Shown here: one piece after another, positions 25,773 to 36,881 of the stretch | Layout of the letters: each line of letters opens with the position of its first letter | Position numbering within the stretch: position 1 is the stretch's first letter | Notes under the pieces: generated by a model | Database searches by the model: none | The model's input: only the letters and a program-made list of their open reading frames with translations | What the model was told of the DNA's origin: nothing | Program-made: the position numbers and the translations under genes | Assembly: GCA_003670925.1 (NCBI GenBank) | Contig: QWQG01000063.1 | Span: forward strand, 1 to 36,881 | Origin: Planctomycetota bacterium | Lineage (GTDB): Bacteria; Planctomycetota; Planctomycetia; Planctomycetales; Planctomycetaceae | Direction of reading: 5' to 3' | Length of the DNA: 36,881 nucleotides

Positions 25773-28700
25773 GTGTCCAACAACCAAGGGCGTTCATGGC
25801 GTCCGGAAAAGAAAAGCCACCAACGGGATACCAGACGTCGACTGCTCTCTGCTCTCGGAATTTTGCTAGCAGCGCTTGTCGGAGCCTTGGTCTATTTACT
25901 GAGTGGACCGGCGGTCCCGCAACTGCATTTCGTGGTTGTGACTGAGCGCGGATTTCGCCTTGATGAGACGGCCCTCACGCCGCTGCCAGTTGGTGCAACC
26001 ACGCTAAACGCGACACGCCTGTTCGCGTTAGCGGAAAGGTTCCGCGAGGTTAATGACAAGCGAATTGGTCCGGGTGAAATACATGTGTCTGTTGCTGATT
26101 TCGTCAAGGGAGATGCACTGCCACACAAAGTGACTCTCGTCATTTATTGTGCGGCGGACGCATGGTGTGTTCCCGATCCGGAAAATCCTGAAAAAACGGT
26201 CCTCGAACTTCTTCCCGCAAAATTCTCAGACAAGCCAGTGCGGTTTTCTGAGCTGCTGGTTAGTCTTAAGAAACGCGAATCTGCGCAAACACTTCTGCTG
26301 CTGGAATTGACAGGACGTTACCCAGGGCTGGCCTCCGGTGCAGTGGCAGATGATATTCCGACGCTGGCTCGCGAAGAAATTAAACGCGCTGCGATTCCCG
26401 GTCTCACTTTAATTTGCGCGTGTGATCAGGGAGAACGTAGTTGGGAGTACGTTGCCGCATCTGCAGGTGCTTCAGGAACTGAGGCATCCATTCATCGCCA
26501 TTTTGAAGGCACTGCGTTTGGCCATTTTCTGTTCAAGGCAATGGCGGAGGGTAACGCTAACAGCGCTATGAACCTTCACAAAACGCTTAGGAAAGATGTC
26601 AAAGAGTGGGTCTTAGGGCATTTTGGAGAGACGCAAACTGTCTGGATGGTGTCCTCAGATGCGATGGCTGCAAAAAACGAGCTTTTGCAAGGAGTCACAC
26701 TTCCAAAGGAGATGAAGTCTGAGCTTGTTACCCCAAATCTTGAAAACGTCGCATCAAAAGAAGTTTCAACATCGGATTCAAAATCAACAAACGGCAAAAC
26801 AGAAGTTCCAATTGGGAACGAGTCCGTTGTCGATGACGAACCCGCTATGACACTGAAAAAATTGTTCGCCGACCGAGATGTGTTAGCTAATCAAACAAAC
26901 GCGGCCGTCCTGTATCCAGTTGAGTGGCTGCAGCTTCATACCAACCTGCTGGCAGCCGAACGTTTCGCAATGAACGGAAACCGGGAAGAGTTTAGTTCGC
27001 TAGACGAGGATGTGCTTCGCAAATCATTGCAGAAACTGAAAAGCGACGCTGCGGAATTGTCGTTGTCACCAAAACTTGTGGCAATCGACGATTGGATTGC
27101 CGTCGCGAGATTGACAGAACTCAGTCCAGAAGACGAGAAGATATTGAAGCAGACACGGCAAGATTTTAGCACCGAGTCGAACAAGTCGCCGTCGCGTCTC
27201 CCCGATCAAATTATCGACAACCCGGATCTGCGCAAGGAGTTTGTTGCCGGCGTGACGAGGGATTTGAAGTCGCTGTCTGAGACGATTGGCGACGAAAGTG
27301 TTGAAGCACAGAAGCGAAAAATTCAGGATCTTGGTTTCCTGATACAGAATCTTTCCTCCCGCTGGCCGCAGGAAGTCTTTCCCGAACAATTGGCAACGAT
27401 CAAGGAAGTTTTACATGGCGATGACATTTCGTGGCTGGCCAAAGCCACGAAGCCTCTCGTGCGGCTATTGGGTCTTCGCCATCAAGCTCTTCAATTTGCC
27501 GCCGGGAAAGATACCGGCGGGAAATTGCTCCGTGGCGAGCAGTGGCAGAAAATAGCGGCAGACATTGATGACGTTCTCGGCAATCTTCATGCGGCCGAAC
27601 GCTGGCTGTGTATCGGGCCGGATGCCGAGAAGTTGACAATGGATCGATTGGAGAAAGCAGAGCAGTCGCTGGCGAAACTGAAGGAACAGGTGGCGGTCAG
27701 AAGCAGGCTCACAAAGATTCAGGACGCTCAGCGATTTCAGATTCTGTTCTGGATTCAGTACCTTGCGATGCGACTTGAGGACACATCGCTGCCGGATAAT
27801 GAACTGGCTGCAGCGAAGATCATGGCAGAGAAGGCCGTCGCCGGCACGGTGGCTTGGCAGGATTTTCCGGAAGGCCAGTTGCCCGTGGGATTCACGCGGG
27901 AACAACACATCAAAGCGATGTTCGCGTTGACGCGTGATTTTTCAAAACCAAAGTCAGAGGTGAATCAGGATGATGAACAGTCCTACGCCATCCTTGACGG
28001 ATATCTGAAGGAGCGACTGGCCGATTCTGCCTCAGCTTCCGAGCGATTACAGTTCCTGACGAATCCTTCGATCCTGAATCGTGAAGAACACCTCCGCAGT
28101 TTCTCGATGCCGCGGGGCGGAGTTCCGCAAGACCCTCATGCGTCTGCAAGCAGGTCCGGGATCTGGACGAGCTTCTGGTCATTGAGACTGGTGGATGCGA
28201 TTGAACAGGAATCATCGGCGGATGACTGGCAGCAATGGAGTAGTCTGGTCACGGCAGTTGCTGACGATTCCAAAAAAGCAACATCCGCTCCCGCACAGCG
28301 TGCCGTGATGGCTCGAATGCTGCGAGGTCGCTGGATCAGGGCCATCGATAAGCTAAAAAAATTCCGCGATTCGGAGGTGTTTGTTCCGGAGCAGGAACTT
28401 CTGCAGTTGTTGTCGGAAGATGTGACTCGGCGAATTCATGCCACACCGTCCGAAAATCTCAGTTTGTATGCAAAGATTCAACAGACACTTCTGGATGCCG
28501 CACCACGTCCAAAACCCGCATTGCTTAGGGTTCTGAATCCGGAGGCTGAATTTTCTCCTGAGAACATGATCACGACGAACGTCCGGGTGAGTCGAGCTGC
28601 GGCACTCTATGTGCTCAACAACGGCGTGACACTGTCAAATGTGAAGACGCAGGCAGACAGAAACTGGTTCCGGCTGTCGGTTGATGCGGTGAACGAGATC

Positions 28701-30638
28701 GATGTATCACTGGAGTTGATGCTTCAGAATGCCCCGCTCGCTGCGACACCACTGGTTATTGTGGCGGTTGACGCACTGGGATCACCCATCAAGACGATGG
28801 TAGCCAGTCTGCTGCCGCCAGCAGAGAATTCATGGCAAATCAATGTCGTGCAGGTCGCTGAGGGCAAGCCGGATAAGCCAATCACACTGGAGGAAGTTCC
28901 GAGCCGGACAAATTGTAGGTTGCCACTTCTGCCATCGACACTGGATCCAGCGACGCAGATCCATGTGCCATTGCAACTGAAGCTGCAACTGCAGCGGATC
29001 AAAGGAAATTCCAGAAGTGTTCGAATCCGGGCGATTCATGCGGAGCATCCGGAGAGCGACGCGGCGGCGTGGTCATTAACTGAGCCGCTCGTGTTTCCGG
29101 ACGGCGTTGTGGTCATCGATATTCCGTTTCAGACACCAGCCGTGCCGCCTGCAGCCGGTGCGACCTCAGTTCCCGGAGTGCTGGACATATCACGTGGTTT
29201 GATCTTTGAGATTACGCCGGATGATCTGCCGAGAAAGATCACATCCAGATTTACAATGACGCCGAGACTGCTCAGGCCAGAAGAGATTCTGCGGCGACCG
29301 ATCCCAACGTACGATCCTGTGAAGGATGAATTGACGATTCCGCTGATTCGTGTTCAATTAAAAGATTCGACCGTCATGTTGCCTGATAAACTTCAGGCAG
29401 ACCTTGAACTGAGTCCAAAGTTGCAACAATACGTGATGCCGGGCACCAGTCCGACATTGAATGCGGATGGAGACAAATTCACAATTCCATTTGAATCAAG
29501 GATCAGAAATATCCTGAACGAAGATGGTTTAGAATTCGGCATTTCCATCGCGGGTATTCCCCATGCTTGGTGGTGGAAATTGGCTGACGGCATTCCGCAA
29601 CCTTTGGACGGAGATCGCCCTCAGATTCGTGCGTTTCTTAACGTCGACCACGCATCAGAAGTGCAGCCGCGTCTTGGTTTACCCGCGCTGGTGCTCGGTC
29701 AAGACTGGGATAAGGCAAAGTTAACGGCACGAGTATTTATTCACGGCGGTTCGCTCACTAATGAACAGCAATTGCGTCTGTATTTTCTGCGACAGGGCAC
29801 TGAGGCCTCCATTCGCGCAACTGACGCACCTTTTGAAGTCAGAGGCCGCTTTGTTGAAACGGTCAGAATCACACCGGGCGAAAACAGCGTTTGGCAGTTT
29901 TCGACGACGACCGACCCGTACGCAGTTGCTGCGTTCACACCGAATCAGAAGCAGCTCAAAAATGGAAACTACGACTTGATTGCCGAGCTTGAACAGCCTA
30001 GTTCAAATGAGGATCCAATCACTTCCAGTGTGCGCTTCACGCTCGACCGTACGAGCCCGGAAATGACTGCAGAAAACGTGCAGCTCAACCAGCTCAGAAC
30101 GAACATCAATGGTATGCTGAAAGGCATTATTCAGGTCACAGATCCGGAGTCTGATGTGATTGCTGTCCGTGTAGGACTGAATCCAGAAATGATGGAACCT
30201 CTGAAGATAACGCGTAGCAAACAGGTCAAGGCAGAGTTCAAACTGGACTCTGCGAAAGGTTTCCCGAAGCTGGTACAAGGGGAAAATGATGAAGAAGAGA
30301 CGATTACGCTTTACGTTGAAGCCGAGAATTTGGCTGGTGAAAAACAACTAATTAAGAAACCTGTGACGTTTTTTCTCCCCGGCAAAGCCGCGCCAATGCC
30401 CATCGCTCGTGGCACGATTGTGGTGAAGTTCAAGTCGAAGTCCCCGTTCGACGTTTCCCTCTCCGGTAAAGGCGTTTCCATGGCGGCTCCGGCAAGTATC
30501 GGAAGTGCCACGTTTGCTGACCTTGAGCCGGGCGATTACACCGTCAATTGGAAGCCAGTGCAGGGAACACTGGGAGAAGGCGCTGCCAAAGTGAAACTTG
30601 GAAGTGGGAAGACGGAAACCGTCGGCCCGGGCAAGTGA
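25773..30638 (+). CDS. Large membrane-anchored protein with a degenerate caspase-like domain
   Basis: The protein is 1621 residues from GTG at 25773, chosen because AGGGAG (25761-25766) sits 6 nt upstream. A basic N-terminus is followed by one membrane span (~24-43), so the bulk should lie outside the cytoplasm. Residues ~70-310 show the strand pattern of a caspase/metacaspase fold: VTLVIYCAADAW (from 120) where active members have YFSGHG, LLLLELTG (174-181) where they have a DxC motif, LTLICACDQGERSWE (~212-226), and GTAFGHFLFKAM (246-257). Catalytic His and Cys are not where expected, so it would be inactive. A long helical region follows, then several beta-rich Ig-like domains (FTLDRTSPEMTAENV near the end) and a PEGA-like C-terminal domain (DLEPGDYTVNWK). 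The caspase-like call is fold-level inference. It is adjacent to a TssM-like gene, so a T6SS envelope role is proposed. Confidence 0.6.
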   Translation: MSNNQGRSWRPEKKSHQRDTRRRLLSALGILLAALVGALVYLLSGPAVPQLHFVVVTERGFRLDETALTPLPVGATTLNATRLFALAERFREVNDKRIGPGEIHVSVADFVKGDALPHKVTLVIYCAADAWCVPDPENPEKTVLELLPAKFSDKPVRFSELLVSLKKRESAQTLLLLELTGRYPGLASGAVADDIPTLAREEIKRAAIPGLTLICACDQGERSWEYVAASAGASGTEASIHRHFEGTAFGHFLFKAMAEGNANSAMNLHKTLRKDVKEWVLGHFGETQTVWMVSSDAMAAKNELLQGVTLPKEMKSELVTPNLENVASKEVSTSDSKSTNGKTEVPIGNESVVDDEPAMTLKKLFADRDVLANQTNAAVLYPVEWLQLHTNLLAAERFAMNGNREEFSSLDEDVLRKSLQKLKSDAAELSLSPKLVAIDDWIAVARLTELSPEDEKILKQTRQDFSTESNKSPSRLPDQIIDNPDLRKEFVAGVTRDLKSLSETIGDESVEAQKRKIQDLGFLIQNLSSRWPQEVFPEQLATIKEVLHGDDISWLAKATKPLVRLLGLRHQALQFAAGKDTGGKLLRGEQWQKIAADIDDVLGNLHAAERWLCIGPDAEKLTMDRLEKAEQSLAKLKEQVAVRSRLTKIQDAQRFQILFWIQYLAMRLEDTSLPDNELAAAKIMAEKAVAGTVAWQDFPEGQLPVGFTREQHIKAMFALTRDFSKPKSEVNQDDEQSYAILDGYLKERLADSASASERLQFLTNPSILNREEHLRSFSMPRGGVPQDPHASASRSGIWTSFWSLRLVDAIEQESSADDWQQWSSLVTAVADDSKKATSAPAQRAVMARMLRGRWIRAIDKLKKFRDSEVFVPEQELLQLLSEDVTRRIHATPSENLSLYAKIQQTLLDAAPRPKPALLRVLNPEAEFSPENMITTNVRVSRAAALYVLNNGVTLSNVKTQADRNWFRLSVDAVNEIDVSLELMLQNAPLAATPLVIVAVDALGSPIKTMVASLLPPAENSWQINVVQVAEGKPDKPITLEEVPSRTNCRLPLLPSTLDPATQIHVPLQLKLQLQRIKGNSRSVRIRAIHAEHPESDAAAWSLTEPLVFPDGVVVIDIPFQTPAVPPAAGATSVPGVLDISRGLIFEITPDDLPRKITSRFTMTPRLLRPEEILRRPIPTYDPVKDELTIPLIRVQLKDSTVMLPDKLQADLELSPKLQQYVMPGTSPTLNADGDKFTIPFESRIRNILNEDGLEFGISIAGIPHAWWWKLADGIPQPLDGDRPQIRAFLNVDHASEVQPRLGLPALVLGQDWDKAKLTARVFIHGGSLTNEQQLRLYFLRQGTEASIRATDAPFEVRGRFVETVRITPGENSVWQFSTTTDPYAVAAFTPNQKQLKNGNYDLIAELEQPSSNEDPITSSVRFTLDRTSPEMTAENVQLNQLRTNINGMLKGIIQVTDPESDVIAVRVGLNPEMMEPLKITRSKQVKAEFKLDSAKGFPKLVQGENDEEETITLYVEAENLAGEKQLIKKPVTFFLPGKAAPMPIARGTIVVKFKSKSPFDVSLSGKGVSMAAPASIGSATFADLEPGDYTVNWKPVQGTLGEGAAKVKLGSGKTETVGPGK

Positions 30639-30771
30639 CATGACATAGACGATGCTGGCGTGAAAAATTCGCCGCAAGATCTTAGACTCAATGAGACGGA
30701 ACATTCTGATAGCACGCAATCGCAGATAGTTGCGCACCTAGGGACAGGTGATTTTGGGGAACAGCCGCACG

Positions 30772-32349
30772 ATGTCAATTCTGTTGCAAATGATCGAATG
30801 GGTCAAATGGATGTTCGGGATTGTACCACGATCTGCTGTGGGATCGCCGAGACTCTTCCTGATTGTGCATTATTCATTCATGGCATTTCTCGCGATTCTG
30901 TTTTCCGTCTTCAGTGATAGTCTTCGAAGACTGGTAGGTTTTCCACCAGATATGGTACACCTTTTTGCGTTAGATCGCATTCTGTGTGGTGCGTTGTTCG
31001 TGCTGAGCTACGCCATTATACGAGTCGTACTTTATCTGATGCTTCTGCTGGGAATCGAGGATGAATCTGATTTTCCGGACATCGAAGCCGACTGGAAGGA
31101 TATCCTCGCCGCTCTCAGCCGCGAGCGAATTTTCTTAGACGATCTTCCATTGTTTCTTGTGAACGGATTTACTCCGCAACAGGAGCAAAGTGCGTTTGAA
31201 GCCGCATCGAATATTGAGTGGCGTGTCATCGCGCCGCCGCTGTCTCAGACGTCTGCTGTGGTGCGGGTCTTCACGAGAGACGATGCGATCTTTCTTTGCT
31301 GCACGGGAGTTGGGGCCACGAATTGTCAGCAGGGCAAGGTTACCAACGTGACCGACAACAACTCAGGCGATACAGGCATGCCGCGTCCCGTTGTCGGGGT
31401 GACGGGAACCAATCAAGCCATGAACGCTCCTTCTGCTGAACTTCCAGGACAGCCCAAAGGCATGGGAGCCTTTTTCGGCACAATGGCGCCCGGTGGCTTA
31501 AAGCGGGCGATGGAAACATTCTCGGCCATCAATCGAGGTGACCAGAAGGGATATGGCAAGAAGCGTGTGATGCCGCTGTCAGAGGTCGAGGCCCAAGTAG
31601 GAATTCGAAGAATGCAGTTTCTGTGCGGACTGATTACGAAAGCTCGACGGCCATTCTGTCAGATCAACGGGATGTTACAGGCGATTCCGTTCTCATGGGC
31701 GTCAGAGGTGGATTATGCAAGAAAACTGGCTCCAGCGATTAAATATGATTTGATCGCTGTACACGAGACATTTCAACTTCAGTTCCCTGTCGTCGCCGTC
31801 GTGACCGAAATGGATTCCGTGGCTGGAATGCGTGACTTTTTGTTGCGTGCCGAGCGGATGCAGCCAGGACTTCGACTGTCTCGTTCAGGCTCAAGCTTCG
31901 CTGCCGGTGCGGACGTGAACGACAAAAATACGGAATGGATTGTCGATCGCGGGATGCAATGGTTTCGCGGCTGGGTTTATACGGCATTTTCCGCTGACAT
32001 TGATAACCGTGACAATCAAAAGCTGTTTCAGATGTTATGCGAAATCAGTCAACGAAGGCAGGGCTTAATGATTTTGCTGCGAGATTCAATGTACCGAATT
32101 GTGCAACCTGGTTTACGATTACACGGTGTCTATTTTTCAGCCACGGGACGTGCGTCAACCGAGCAGGGATTTATTCGCGGCGTGCTGGATAAACTGCCGG
32201 AATCGCAGGGAATGGTCGCGTGGACTCCGCAACTCTTGCGTTCGCACCAAAGGTCCAAAATGCTTTCGGTCTGCTTTTTCGCCGGAGGCGTGCTGATGGC
32301 AACAGCAGCAATCGCCGTCTACATCTATCGAATTGCAGGTGCCACATGA
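30772..32349 (+). CDS. tssM: TssM/IcmF N-terminal half (truncated form, degenerate NTPase)
   Basis: TssM normally is a ~1100-residue inner-membrane protein. This gene has only 525 residues from ATG 30772 (GGGGA 11 nt upstream; a GTG at 30748 is the alternative). Two membrane spans (~27-47 and ~63-93) precede a cytoplasmic domain arranged like TssM: LPLFLVNGF (126-133), where a Walker A should follow but reads TPQQEQSAF; IFLCCTG in place of the DxxG motif; INGMLQAIPFS (from 298), equal to the TssM INGVIL segment; and PVVAVVTEMD (ending at 348), equal to the PVYVVxTKxD motif with Lys replaced by Glu. A third span lies near the C-terminus (~499-521) and the protein stops there. The large periplasmic half is missing. 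Its stop overlaps the next gene start (ATGA). The TssM assignment rests on the motif order, not on an alignment. Confidence 0.7.
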   Translation: MSILLQMIEWVKWMFGIVPRSAVGSPRLFLIVHYSFMAFLAILFSVFSDSLRRLVGFPPDMVHLFALDRILCGALFVLSYAIIRVVLYLMLLLGIEDESDFPDIEADWKDILAALSRERIFLDDLPLFLVNGFTPQQEQSAFEAASNIEWRVIAPPLSQTSAVVRVFTRDDAIFLCCTGVGATNCQQGKVTNVTDNNSGDTGMPRPVVGVTGTNQAMNAPSAELPGQPKGMGAFFGTMAPGGLKRAMETFSAINRGDQKGYGKKRVMPLSEVEAQVGIRRMQFLCGLITKARRPFCQINGMLQAIPFSWASEVDYARKLAPAIKYDLIAVHETFQLQFPVVAVVTEMDSVAGMRDFLLRAERMQPGLRLSRSGSSFAAGADVNDKNTEWIVDRGMQWFRGWVYTAFSADIDNRDNQKLFQMLCEISQRRQGLMILLRDSMYRIVQPGLRLHGVYFSATGRASTEQGFIRGVLDKLPESQGMVAWTPQLLRSHQRSKMLSVCFFAGGVLMATAAIAVYIYRIAGAT

Positions 32350-35300
32350 CGTCAGATGGAAGGCAGGACTGGCGTGGCGGTCGTATTCCTCGGAATTCGG
32401 ACCGCGAGTCCGAAGCGACTCCCACGTGGAAACAGGCTCGGCATTCACCGCTCGGTAGATCGCGGTCCAAAGGTCTTTGGCCAAAGTTGCGGCTGGGGCT
32501 CATGGGGGGGGTGCTGCTGTTCCTCGTGGGAGCCATTATCGCTTTTATGTGGCCTGCGCGAATTCACCGAACGCATTTTTTGGTTCTATCATTGCTTAAG
32601 GACTCTCAGGATTTTGACTCTGCCACGACTCTGACACTGCCGGAAGGAATTGAAACAGCAACAAGCACACGAGTCGCCACTCTTTGCCCGTCTGATTCTT
32701 TGACGTGGCCGACGACCAGTAAGACTGATCAGCTCAACCTTGACAATGCTGACACGGTGGTTATCTATCTGCAGACCACCTTTGTTCCGGGACCAAAGGG
32801 TGAATTTCAATGCCTGATTCGCAACAGCACTCCGAACCTTGAAAATCCAAACGAGTACACCGAACTGGGGAAGCTGAAATTAGAGCTTGACGCGCTATGG
32901 AAGAAGGATTCCGAAAAGTATGTCCTGCTGCTAGTAGATTCCCCTCCTACGAGTTTTGAATGGCGTGCCGGCAGTCTGCACATCAGTCTGACTGACACTT
33001 TTGAACAATGGACAAAGGCTTCTCCGCAACTGGTTGTCCTCATGGGTTCACCGGTGAACGGAACCAGTGAGCTGGGCACGCCTGATACGGACGGGAAAAC
33101 CATCTTTGGGCACTTCGCATCCATTGGTTTGAGCAGTCTGGCAAACCTGAACTCAGACCAAGAATTGACCGTTGGCGAGTATTGCAGTTATGTGGCTGAA
33201 CGCACAAACCGCTGGGTGCAGGATCATCGTGATGTAGCCGGCCAGGCTGTGACAGTACTGCCGCCTTTGGAATCTTTGTCAAAGGCTGATCGGAATTTTA
33301 AACTCATCACCGATCTGATGCCATTTGAGGTGTCTCGTGAGCAGCTCAATGGCAAATTAAATGCTGACTGGTCGCAGATCGAGAAACTGTGGTCGCTGCG
33401 GCAATCGCTCCAGACGTGTGGAGGAATTCGCTGGAATCCACTGCTCTGGAAATCGGCGACAGACAAGCTCCTGCGTGCGGAGAGTGCCACGCTCCATGGC
33501 CAAGGTGATTTCGCTCGCCGCGCATTAAAGGAGGCGACGGAAACACTGCATGAACTGGAAATGCGTACGAATGAAATCTGCCCGCAGTCCGATTCCATGC
33601 TCGTCGATCGCGGAATAGCGTTGAGCGAATTTAGCGGACTGCCGTCGCTCAATCGCATTCGGCCGCTGTTTCCTACGGAAGAGGCAAATACGGGAGGCAC
33701 AGTTGAACATGCGTCTGCTGAAGACGTCATCGATTCGCAGCTCCGCGGATTTCCATTCAGCAGTATGGGGCTCACTGCACCGACGGACATGGATTCGATT
33801 CGATCACGGCGTGCAGCAGCTGAGACTGCCGTTGCTCAGCTGCTGGGATGTTCAGATCAGCTCGCACAAACGATGAAACACATGGAAGCTTCGCTGCTTT
33901 TGTCCGAAGACCGCCACTTCACACGCCCAGGTTCGGTCGAACCCGGAGCATTGGATGATGCGAATCCCGATGCCTTGATTAACGCCGTCACCGCGTTTTC
34001 TGAAGTCCGTGACCGCGCGGAGACCACTCTTTTTGAAGTGCTTGACATCGCACCTTCATTGGCGCTCTGGGCGGCAGAGTCAGGCAGCGGCATGTCGGAT
34101 GCTGATCGAAAGATCTGGCAAAAGGTGTTGTCGCAGAATTCGCCGGAAACAGACGTTGGTTCAGGAAGCCTGAGTTCGATGTTTGATCCTCTGAAAGCGA
34201 TCGGAAGTGAAGAAGGGAACGATATTGCCGACTACCAGCGTACGGCTAGGGATTTGCAAGCCAAGATTTATCAGCTCCTAGTGTATGGTCGAGCCCTGCA
34301 GCACAGTCTTATGCTGAAAGAACCGGACCAGGGATTCCATGCCGATGAACTTCGAGCGGTGACTCAAACATTGGATTCAGCACAGGGCAATGCGTCGCAA
34401 TCACAGCGAAAGACAATGGAACTTATTGAGAAAATGTGTGCGGAAGTTCTGGGTGAAGGGTCCGACAAGAGATATGGACAGGTGCGTGCATACCACTTTC
34501 TGCGCTCCACGCTGAAGTTGACTGCCATAAAAGCTGAGACCAGAAGTTTGGTGCTGCGAGCACTTCAAAAACTGGACGGGAAGTTGTCGAAGTCAGATCC
34601 CGTGGCGGACGCAGCGGCTGCTCAGGATAAGAATATTGCTCTGATGCAGCCGATCGCAGCCGACGAAGCACTGTGGATGCTGCAGATTCTGAACTTCCTG
34701 CCGAGTTCGGAAAAGCCTTCGACGTTACTCCGGGACGCCTGGCATGCGGCAAACTCGCTTGATGTGAGTGCGTCAGCCGAAAAGCATGATGCGGCAGCTC
34801 GGTTTGGGGAGGCGATTCGAGGACTCTGGAAGCAAAATCAGGACACCGTTGAGTCGGCATTGCAGGATACGACGTCGGACGCACACCGTCTGCTGAGATC
34901 AGCCGACCAGCGGGCTCGACTCTTTTCAGGTTTTGATGCCCGGCGTAAGTCACTGCAATCGTTAACAGAACGGTTGCGTCAACTCAATCGAATTCAGTAT
35001 TGCCTGATGCATGTCGATCGCCTGCTCTCGGGGCACTGGGTCGAACCTCAGGATAGCGCTCCGTTCATTCAGAACGGATGGTATGCCAAAGCGGCGCAAT
35101 CATGGTTGACAGCCGCAGACGACAGTCTGCAACGCTTGTCAAATGATGCGTTGGGAGCACCTGCAATCCTTGTAGATTCTATTCGGCTTCTTGAAACCCG
35201 TCTGTCGCAGTCCGAACAAATGATGCCGGTATTCGAGACGAAGCAGCCGGACCTGAATCTCAGCGAACAGTCAAAGGACAGCGGCACCATCAAAGGGATG

Positions 35301-36881
35301 GTCAGGATGAACGGGCTGGCAGACATGTCTGGTGAGGCCGCAGTTCTGGTGCGTCTTGATCCGAACATTCCGTTCGTCGTCGAAAACAATTCGCTGGGAC
35401 TGCCGATCGGTGGTGAGGCAAAGGAAGCAGTGTTTGCGCTGAAACGCAACGGAAATCCGGGGACCGATGGCTGCCAGTCCGTATGGCTGCGGCCCGAAAT
35501 ATTTTTTCGAGGGCGGTTCGAAAAATCGCCGCACCAAATCTCGGTCAATCCGTGTGCGCCGACAGAATTCGTCATGGATAAAACAGCTCGGCCCCAGACT
35601 GCAAGTGTGACGGTTTCGGGAGTTGATCCGCGCCCAATTGTACTCATTCTCGACTATTCCGTCAGTATGCTGGAGCCGATGGCAAACGGGACAAATCGAC
35701 CGAGGTTCATGGAGGCACTTGCGACTCTTAAACGACTCATCAATGACGAGGCATTGCAGGATTCCAGTGTCATTCTGACCGTGTATGGACATCGCACGAA
35801 GTTGATTGACGGGGCGCACGTTCCCAACCCGGATTATGCGAAGTGTTTTCCTGACAAAGTCGTACCGCCAGGATTGAAGGCCCATGACGATATCGAGACA
35901 GAGTTCAAGAAAACGATCAGCGGGCCTGATGACCGGATTGAGTTCATGAAGATTCTGGACAACTTAAGGTGTTCACAGCCTTCCGGAACAACGCCGCTCA
36001 CCAAAGCGCTTGCTGATGCCGTCCGGGTCACGCTTAAGGGAAAGCAGGGTATCGTCATTGCCGTGACCGATGGGGAAGCCACGGACATGGACGAGACCCG
36101 AAAATCGCTGCTCGCTGAGGCATTGAATGACAATCCGGGAACTTCGGTGGGAATCGTCGCGTTTGATCTTGGTGCACCCGGTCAACTGCTGCGACTCAAG
36201 AACGCATTCAGAGAATTTGACACGATCACCATTGATGACGCAGCGGAACAAGAACAGTTGTTGACGCGAATCCACGAATCGCTCGATCCGAGGAAGTTCT
36301 CGATAACCTGTCCGTCGGAAAAAAAATTGCGGGAAGCTGAACTGGGACAGGAAATCGGCGACCTGCCGTTGGCTCTCGATTACTCCGTCCAGTTTGATCA
36401 GCTGAGTTCATCCAGACCAATCGTGTTGAATTACGGTGATTTTTTAAAGCTTGATATTGATCGCAGCGCCAGGAGATTCGTGTTCCAGCGTGAAAAGAGT
36501 CCTGTCAGCAAGGATGCCATACATGGTGCGTTGGCGGACGATACACCCAGCCTCTTGAGATCCATTGTGCTGCCAAAGGTATCAGTTCTTCCGCCAGGTC
36601 GCAATTCGGAAATGGCCATGGCCAGGGCTGAACTCAGCCTGATGCTTGACCATCTGCGCGTTGATCTTCCGGTCCGGCAACCGGCAGAGATTGAGTTGGC
36701 TGTCAGGTCATCCAATTTGGAATCTGATTTCCGGCCCCCCCTGATTCACCAGGTCTTTACATCAAAGGCCGGTGCGCCGGGATGGAACCTGACGATTGAC
36801 GAGTGGCCAAAAGCACAACGATTTTTGGTCGATGCGATTTGGAAAATGGAACGGACACCGCCTGAGTATGTGGTCCCGTGG
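32346..36881 (+). CDS. Membrane-anchored caspase-like/VWA protein (3'-truncated by window)
   Basis: The frame from ATG 32346 stays open for 1512 codons to the last base. A Ser/Arg-rich cytoplasmic segment (~45 residues) and a membrane span (LGLMGGVLLFLVGAIIAFMW) lead to a second degenerate caspase-like domain: DTVVIYLQ (from 136), LLLVDSPP (D198, with no Cys at the usual DxC position), then PQLVVLMGSP, IFGHFAS and LTVGEYCSYVAERTN, as in caspase-like proteins. A helical region (~330-1000) includes ASLLLSEDRHF, resembling LLAAERFAMNG in the 25773 protein. A von Willebrand A domain follows with a complete MIDAS: DYSVS (D1103, S1105, S1107), T1215 in SGTTPLT, and D1242 in VTDGEATD, so metal-dependent ligand binding is likely. 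It is translationally coupled to the TssM-like gene by a 4-bp ATGA overlap, so the two may work as one unit, replacing the TssM periplasmic half. Confidence 0.75.
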   Translation, partial: MTSDGRQDWRGGRIPRNSDRESEATPTWKQARHSPLGRSRSKGLWPKLRLGLMGGVLLFLVGAIIAFMWPARIHRTHFLVLSLLKDSQDFDSATTLTLPEGIETATSTRVATLCPSDSLTWPTTSKTDQLNLDNADTVVIYLQTTFVPGPKGEFQCLIRNSTPNLENPNEYTELGKLKLELDALWKKDSEKYVLLLVDSPPTSFEWRAGSLHISLTDTFEQWTKASPQLVVLMGSPVNGTSELGTPDTDGKTIFGHFASIGLSSLANLNSDQELTVGEYCSYVAERTNRWVQDHRDVAGQAVTVLPPLESLSKADRNFKLITDLMPFEVSREQLNGKLNADWSQIEKLWSLRQSLQTCGGIRWNPLLWKSATDKLLRAESATLHGQGDFARRALKEATETLHELEMRTNEICPQSDSMLVDRGIALSEFSGLPSLNRIRPLFPTEEANTGGTVEHASAEDVIDSQLRGFPFSSMGLTAPTDMDSIRSRRAAAETAVAQLLGCSDQLAQTMKHMEASLLLSEDRHFTRPGSVEPGALDDANPDALINAVTAFSEVRDRAETTLFEVLDIAPSLALWAAESGSGMSDADRKIWQKVLSQNSPETDVGSGSLSSMFDPLKAIGSEEGNDIADYQRTARDLQAKIYQLLVYGRALQHSLMLKEPDQGFHADELRAVTQTLDSAQGNASQSQRKTMELIEKMCAEVLGEGSDKRYGQVRAYHFLRSTLKLTAIKAETRSLVLRALQKLDGKLSKSDPVADAAAAQDKNIALMQPIAADEALWMLQILNFLPSSEKPSTLLRDAWHAANSLDVSASAEKHDAAARFGEAIRGLWKQNQDTVESALQDTTSDAHRLLRSADQRARLFSGFDARRKSLQSLTERLRQLNRIQYCLMHVDRLLSGHWVEPQDSAPFIQNGWYAKAAQSWLTAADDSLQRLSNDALGAPAILVDSIRLLETRLSQSEQMMPVFETKQPDLNLSEQSKDSGTIKGMVRMNGLADMSGEAAVLVRLDPNIPFVVENNSLGLPIGGEAKEAVFALKRNGNPGTDGCQSVWLRPEIFFRGRFEKSPHQISVNPCAPTEFVMDKTARPQTASVTVSGVDPRPIVLILDYSVSMLEPMANGTNRPRFMEALATLKRLINDEALQDSSVILTVYGHRTKLIDGAHVPNPDYAKCFPDKVVPPGLKAHDDIETEFKKTISGPDDRIEFMKILDNLRCSQPSGTTPLTKALADAVRVTLKGKQGIVIAVTDGEATDMDETRKSLLAEALNDNPGTSVGIVAFDLGAPGQLLRLKNAFREFDTITIDDAAEQEQLLTRIHESLDPRKFSITCPSEKKLREAELGQEIGDLPLALDYSVQFDQLSSSRPIVLNYGDFLKLDIDRSARRFVFQREKSPVSKDAIHGALADDTPSLLRSIVLPKVSVLPPGRNSEMAMARAELSLMLDHLRVDLPVRQPAEIELAVRSSNLESDFRPPLIHQVFTSKAGAPGWNLTIDEWPKAQRFLVDAIWKMERTPPEYVVPW

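Follow-up and report, generated by a model that had tools for sequence, protein, structure and literature searches.

Gene content of the locus

The window, that is, the whole stretch of 36,881 nucleotides analysed here, comprises an entire contig and contains a planctomycete T6SS locus, the closing genes of which encode three proteins designated P1, P2 and P3 (Table 1). The start of P3 overlaps the stop of P2 (ATGA), and the 3' end of P3 is missing, its reading frame being still open where the contig stops; complete relatives of P3 are about 1,600-1,780 aa long. The gene next upstream of P1 encodes TssH/ClpV, and TssL (DotU) and TssK are encoded divergently in the same locus. The two TssC (VipB) paralogues are adjacent and full-length, and a mixed sheath is possible. 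A gene for a sigma-70-type factor lies between TssK/TssL and the TssA-TssH run, and a Ser/Thr kinase with WD40 propellers, encoded near the T6SS cluster, is a possible regulator of the system. An ORF that is open at the contig start has no Pfam match. Hcp (PF05638) gave no match in the whole genome to which the window belongs, while the positive control was detected; the tube protein of this genome would be either divergent or absent from the assembly, and because of this absence its T6SS could be divergent or incomplete.

Table 1. Genes and protein features in the window (positions in nucleotides)
Feature	Start	End	Strand	Remarks
ORF open at contig start	1	2037		678 aa
Ser/Thr kinase with WD40 propellers	2184	8009		1941 aa
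TssL (DotU), TssK	9676	11840	-
Sigma-70-type factor	12428	13201
TssA-like (ImpA_N), TssB, two TssC, ImpE, TssE	13294	19473	+
First TssC (VipB) paralogue	14946	16436
Second TssC (VipB) paralogue	16528	18105
TssF, TssG	19504	22448	+	Baseplate genes
TssH/ClpV	22449	25268	+	TIGR03345, 1285 bits
P1	25773	30638	+	1621 aa; membrane-anchored pseudo-caspase paralogue without VWA
P1 N-terminal membrane span	25842	25898	+	Residues 24-42; hydropathy
P1 caspase-like domain	25899	26744	+	Profile match, AF2 model, structural comparison
P1 YCAADAW (His position)	26145	26165
P1 LELTG (Cys position)	26301	26315
P1 LICACDQ	26409
P1 GTAFGHF	26508
P1 helical domain	26841	28514	+	Two W/AER motifs; homologous to that of P3 (hhalign)
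P1 C-terminal beta-rich (Ig-like) region	28515	30635	+	Weak Big_3_3 match
P2	30748	32349	+	533 aa; half-length TssM with two N-terminal membrane spans, cytoplasmic PF14331 domain, TM3, stop
P2 stretch at the P-loop position	31144	31188	+	LPLFLVNGFTPQQEQ
P2 TM3	32260	32328	+	Hydropathy
P3	32346	36881	+	1512 aa; membrane-anchored pseudo-caspase paralogue with VWA
P3 N-terminal membrane span	32493	32549	+	Residues 50-68; hydropathy
P3 caspase-like domain	32532	33335	+	Profile match, structural comparison
P3 YLQTTF (His position)	32766	32783
P3 VDSPP (Cys position)	32934	32948
P3 LVVLMGSP	33030
P3 IFGHFAS	33102
P3 helical domain	33357	35444	+	hhalign to P1
P3 VWA domain	35640	36086	+	Complete MIDAS

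A TssM that ends at its third membrane span

P2 was described as a half-length TssM in the first-pass annotation, and this description holds: the only Pfam match of P2 is PF14331 (E = 4.5e-9) and the protein stops 7 aa past TM3. Compared with the full-length TssM of other planctomycete classes, P2 corresponds (99.7%) to the cytoplasmic half up to TM3. It thus has the IcmF-related cytoplasmic domain and the membrane topology of a TssM, but neither the P-loop nor the large periplasmic C-terminal domain. Where full-length planctomycete TssM has its P-loop, GEPGSGKT, the aligned stretch of P2 no longer contains this motif (Table 1), which is found in none of 43 half-length TssM proteins versus all ten of the long TssM proteins read from other classes. 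Nearly all of the 43 relatives of P2 stop a few residues past TM3 (hydropathy missed TM3 in two of them); a few carry an extension of about 20-60 aa, and no TssM periplasmic domain was recognized in these longer proteins.

Within the phylum sample, half-length TssM is confined to the window's own class. In the other classes the P2 profile matches the PF14331 portion only, within ORFs mostly of 1,100-1,700 aa. A match to IcmF_C (PF06744) was obtained in one of 170 genomes, an absence that is uninformative because the four full-length planctomycete TssM proteins scanned gave no match to it either.

Architecture and common descent of P1 and P3

P1 and P3 share a common plan of one membrane span, a caspase-like domain and a helical domain, and differ in their C-terminal parts. 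The single N-terminal span noted at first reading in both proteins is borne out by hydropathy, and past it each extends for about 1,500 residues. The direct alignment of the two proteins, which had been proposed as a check, was carried out with 22 P1-type and 22 P3-type proteins and gave an hhalign probability of 100 (E = 5e-55) over about 750 columns; taken separately, the caspase-like domains gave 99.9% and the helical domains 99.6%. No relationship was seen between the C-terminal parts. On a tree of 60 proteins (a quick tree with long branches, the root position of which is not fixed), the VWA-bearing (P3) and VWA-free (P1) types required three changes, compared with 19.9 in shuffles, and the well-supported branches are compatible with a single origin, as one old duplication predicts. 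Other families of the class also hold pairs consisting of one P1-type and one P3-type gene. At the level of protein sequence, the suspected common ancestry of P1 and P3 as paralogues is confirmed by these comparisons.

A related helical motif, LLAAERF in P1 and LLLSEDRHF in P3, had also been pointed out. The helical domains are indeed homologous, but this pairing is out of register, for the profile alignment places LLAAERF (residue 391) against LLRAESA of P3 (375), and LLLSEDRHF (517) against NLHAAERW of P1 (604). The AF2 model of the helical domain is weak, with pLDDT values of 30-60 over much of its length. As for the C-terminal parts, homologues of P1 end in a CarboxypepD_reg domain (PF13620 in the P1-type proteins of loci L116 and L117), and P3 carries the MIDAS residues of a VWA adhesion domain (DxSxS, T, D) as DYSVS, TPL and TDGE, which are kept in those relatives whose sequence covers the VWA.

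A caspase-like fold without its catalytic residues

When compared by hhalign with eight genuine planctomycete Peptidase_C14 domains, the domain following the membrane span matched with 99.3% in P1 and 98.8% in P3, whereas 40 shuffled comparisons gave at most 0.3% and reversed ones at most 2.8%. Structure prediction and a fold search, as suggested in the first-pass annotation, returned a caspase-type alpha/beta fold for both proteins. The AF2 model of the P1 domain (pLDDT 66.8, pTM 0.75, from a seven-row alignment) had only clan CD proteins as its top Foldseek matches, namely MALT1, GSU0716, a metacaspase and legumain (best E = 5e-7), and was superimposed on procaspase-7 with Z 14.9 and rmsd 3.1 over 201 aligned residues. 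For P3 the model is of lower quality, with pLDDT 57.9 and a best Foldseek match to caspase-1 at E = 3e-3; its first 267 residues gave Z 13.4 and rmsd 3.3 against caspase-7, with 187 residues aligned, and the rows listed for this comparison were caspases and legumains. Since the P1 and P3 alignments had rows in common, the two models are not fully independent. The clan CD caspase-hemoglobinase alpha/beta fold is confirmed for the predicted structures of P1 and P3, at lower confidence for P3. HMMER searches of PDB sequences with the caspase-domain profiles found no caspase (the best matches were subtilisin fragments and an ABC transporter) because the domains are too divergent for this method. 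PF00656 (Peptidase_C14) matched neither window protein at the curated cut-off, nor anything above cut-off in the window's genome, and reaches single relatives only, one P3-type relative with 3.3e-8.

All of the motifs by which the fold had originally been recognized are present, and the reported replacement of both catalytic residues was borne out in a joint alignment of the P1/P3 domains with true caspases: the His position is occupied by D in P1 and by T in P3, and the Cys position by T and P, respectively. In the absence of the His and Cys of active Peptidase_C14 proteins, the caspase-like domains of these two proteins cannot be cysteine proteases, to judge from their residues. Among 73 P1/P3-type domains, 28 have the His only, four the Cys only (one of which does not cover the His position), 39 neither and two both, so that the His is kept in 30 and the Cys in six. 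The two with the complete dyad (GHG...DSCR) are P3-type proteins of one genus, in loci L116 (2687-7696) and L124 (3861-8786). The non-enzymatic character claimed at first reading therefore applies to both window proteins but not to the whole family, most of which, as far as these positions indicate, has lost protease activity. From the remnants of His and Cys across the 73 relatives it follows that the ancestor of the family was a catalytically equipped caspase.

Association with the T6SS

A P1- and/or P3-type gene directly adjoins all 25 of the closer P2 genes on the same strand (both in 19), and the P2 genes without both neighbours are mostly cases of contig ends or truncated genes. P1 relatives immediately precede P2 in 22 loci. 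Most of the distant P2 loci likewise have a P1/P3-type gene nearby, and in part of the class (e.g., genomes G438 and G501) P1 and P3 are encoded at a distance from P2.

Co-occurrence was scored in 391 genomes of the phylum, counting ORFs that match the P3 profile and are 1,460 aa or longer. In the window's own class, TssB and such ORFs occur in the same 21 genomes and in no others. Half-length TssM occurs in all of these 21 and additionally in G091, which is an exception to the rule: it has two half-length TssM genes (in loci L060 and L061) without TssB, and one weak match to the P1 profile (a 730-aa ORF in L060). TssB is also present in 53 genomes of other classes, all of which lack a P1/P3-type ORF of at least 1,460 aa; the one long P3-profile match there (1,420 aa, in G258) belongs to a genome without TssB. 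This co-occurrence follows a single class, and may reflect one ancestral event. A role in the T6SS envelope, as had been proposed from the genes, is strongly supported by the operon conservation and by the exact co-occurrence with TssB.

Comparison with known membrane complexes

The arrangement is real and unusual, and is best classed as a variant of the T6SS membrane complex. The locus shares with the canonical T6SSi (TssJ-TssL-TssM) the presence of TssL and a TssM cytoplasmic half, to which P2 is homologous as far as TM3, and the remaining T6SS core of the window is canonical. It differs in having no match to TssJ (none was found in 170 genomes of the order, the E. coli control being detected), in lacking the P-loop and the periplasmic domain of TssM, and in the addition of two pseudo-caspase proteins. 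In the T6SSiii of Bacteroidota, the membrane complex consists of TssNQOPR, of which TssR with a VWA and TssP with an Ig-like PKD are periplasmic (PMC10781749). Like the complex proposed for P1 and P3, it is a phylum-specific periplasmic set of single-span proteins or lipoproteins; however, TssL and TssM are absent from T6SSiii, no caspase fold is reported there, and P1 and P3 are far larger. By analogy, a periplasmic role of P1 and P3 would parallel that of TssP and TssR, for which no Pfam match on P3 or P1 was obtained at E 1, in a search where the TssR control gave no match either. In the non-canonical membrane complex of Acinetobacter (PMC10564176), TssJ is missing as well and new envelope proteins compensate, but its TssM gains a domain and keeps the periplasmic half, and the abstract mentions no caspase-like components.

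Dead variants of the caspase p20 fold are known among bacterial caspase homologues (Peptidase_C14): the pseudo-orthocaspases described so far carry Tyr/Ser and are linked to photosynthesis, with no mention of planctomycetes or secretion (PMC6426788). Unlike these, the domain in P1 and P3 is anchored to the membrane, is joined to helical and VWA/Ig parts, and is linked to a T6SS.

Interpretation

We consider it probable that this lineage has a T6SS membrane complex of its own with P1 and P3 as the periplasmic part, in which they most likely are the structural replacement for the lost outer half of TssM. They would have arisen as an ancient pair of inner-membrane paralogues from a caspase-type protease. 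P2 and TssL would form the inner-membrane base that holds the baseplate there, and P1 and P3, assembled with P2, a periplasmic cage or channel, the role of the TssM periplasmic domain elsewhere. The caspase-like domain would act as a rigid protein-protein interaction scaffold, for dimerisation or docking, and the MIDAS of the P3 VWA would likely mediate metal-dependent binding to an outer partner. In this scheme the topology of P1, P2 and P3 rests on hydropathy, and the later steps are inferred. P1 and P3 as a fission product of TssM were also considered and rejected (hhalign to the TssM periplasmic half at most 0.3%); since they show no similarity to that half, the replacement would be non-homologous.

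P1 and P3 might instead be T6SS-linked sensors or regulators, or VWA/Ig surface adhesins serving firing control or prey binding, with an unseen protein completing the complex. Domains such as theirs (VWA, Ig-like, CarboxypepD_reg) typically occur in binding proteins, and the kinase-WD40 gene and the sigma factor in the locus imply that the system is regulated; yet both proteins are strictly present in every T6SS of the class sampled and adjoin TssM rather than the regulators, which fits a core part better, and we regard such a role as unlikely. Still less credence is given to P1 and P3 as active or recently active proteases (for processing of the complex, or for self-destruction or defence), the window copies being decayed or inactive partners of an active paralogue. 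The dyad kept in L116 and L124 speaks for it, as do the caspase-like domains of polymorphic toxins, which are active processing and releasing peptidases (PMC3482391), a use different from that of P1 and P3. However, in 71 of the 73 domains at least one catalytic residue is replaced or not covered, and the window proteins have lost both in a genome with no PF00656 match above cut-off.

That the halving of TssM is only apparent, an interrupted gene being restored by frameshifting, is very improbable. In Citrobacter rodentium a TssM form without the C-terminal domain is functional, and slippage additionally yields the full-length protein, which is required (PMC4256274); in the window, the reading frame of P3 continues without a stop through the end of P2. 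Against this, the stop point just past TM3 recurs in nearly all of the 43 relatives, the gene downstream is P3, with a span of its own and unrelated to the TssM periplasmic half, and, unlike in C. rodentium, no downstream part of TssM was found (the TssM periplasmic profile matched in none of 22 genomes of the class, with only three of ten controls detected). Finally, the resemblance to caspases could be a generic alpha/beta similarity, in keeping with the failure of the HMMER profiles and the restricted reach of PF00656. This explanation has a negligible chance, and is already refuted by the profile-profile matches to true caspases, which shuffling abolishes, the caspase-only top structural matches, and the His and Cys remnants in the correct columns.

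Returning to P1 and P3 as the periplasmic part of the complex, there is an even chance that the locus represents a further type of envelope anchor, in which TssM is reduced to a membrane half without a P-loop, a duplicated pseudo-caspase pair replaces the periplasmic channel, the caspase fold, once enzymatic, has become a structural element of a secretion machine, and the lineage that still has the dyad represents an intermediate or an active form. A search of the open literature on the planctomycete T6SS with TssM or caspase (subscription papers and preprints lying outside its scope) found nothing matching, and P1 and P3 provide two marker genes for a T6SS subtype undescribed in that literature. 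If this reading is true, planctomycetes anchor the T6SS in the envelope in their own way, as Bacteroidota do, and a protease fold familiar chiefly from cell death can serve as the scaffolding of a machine.
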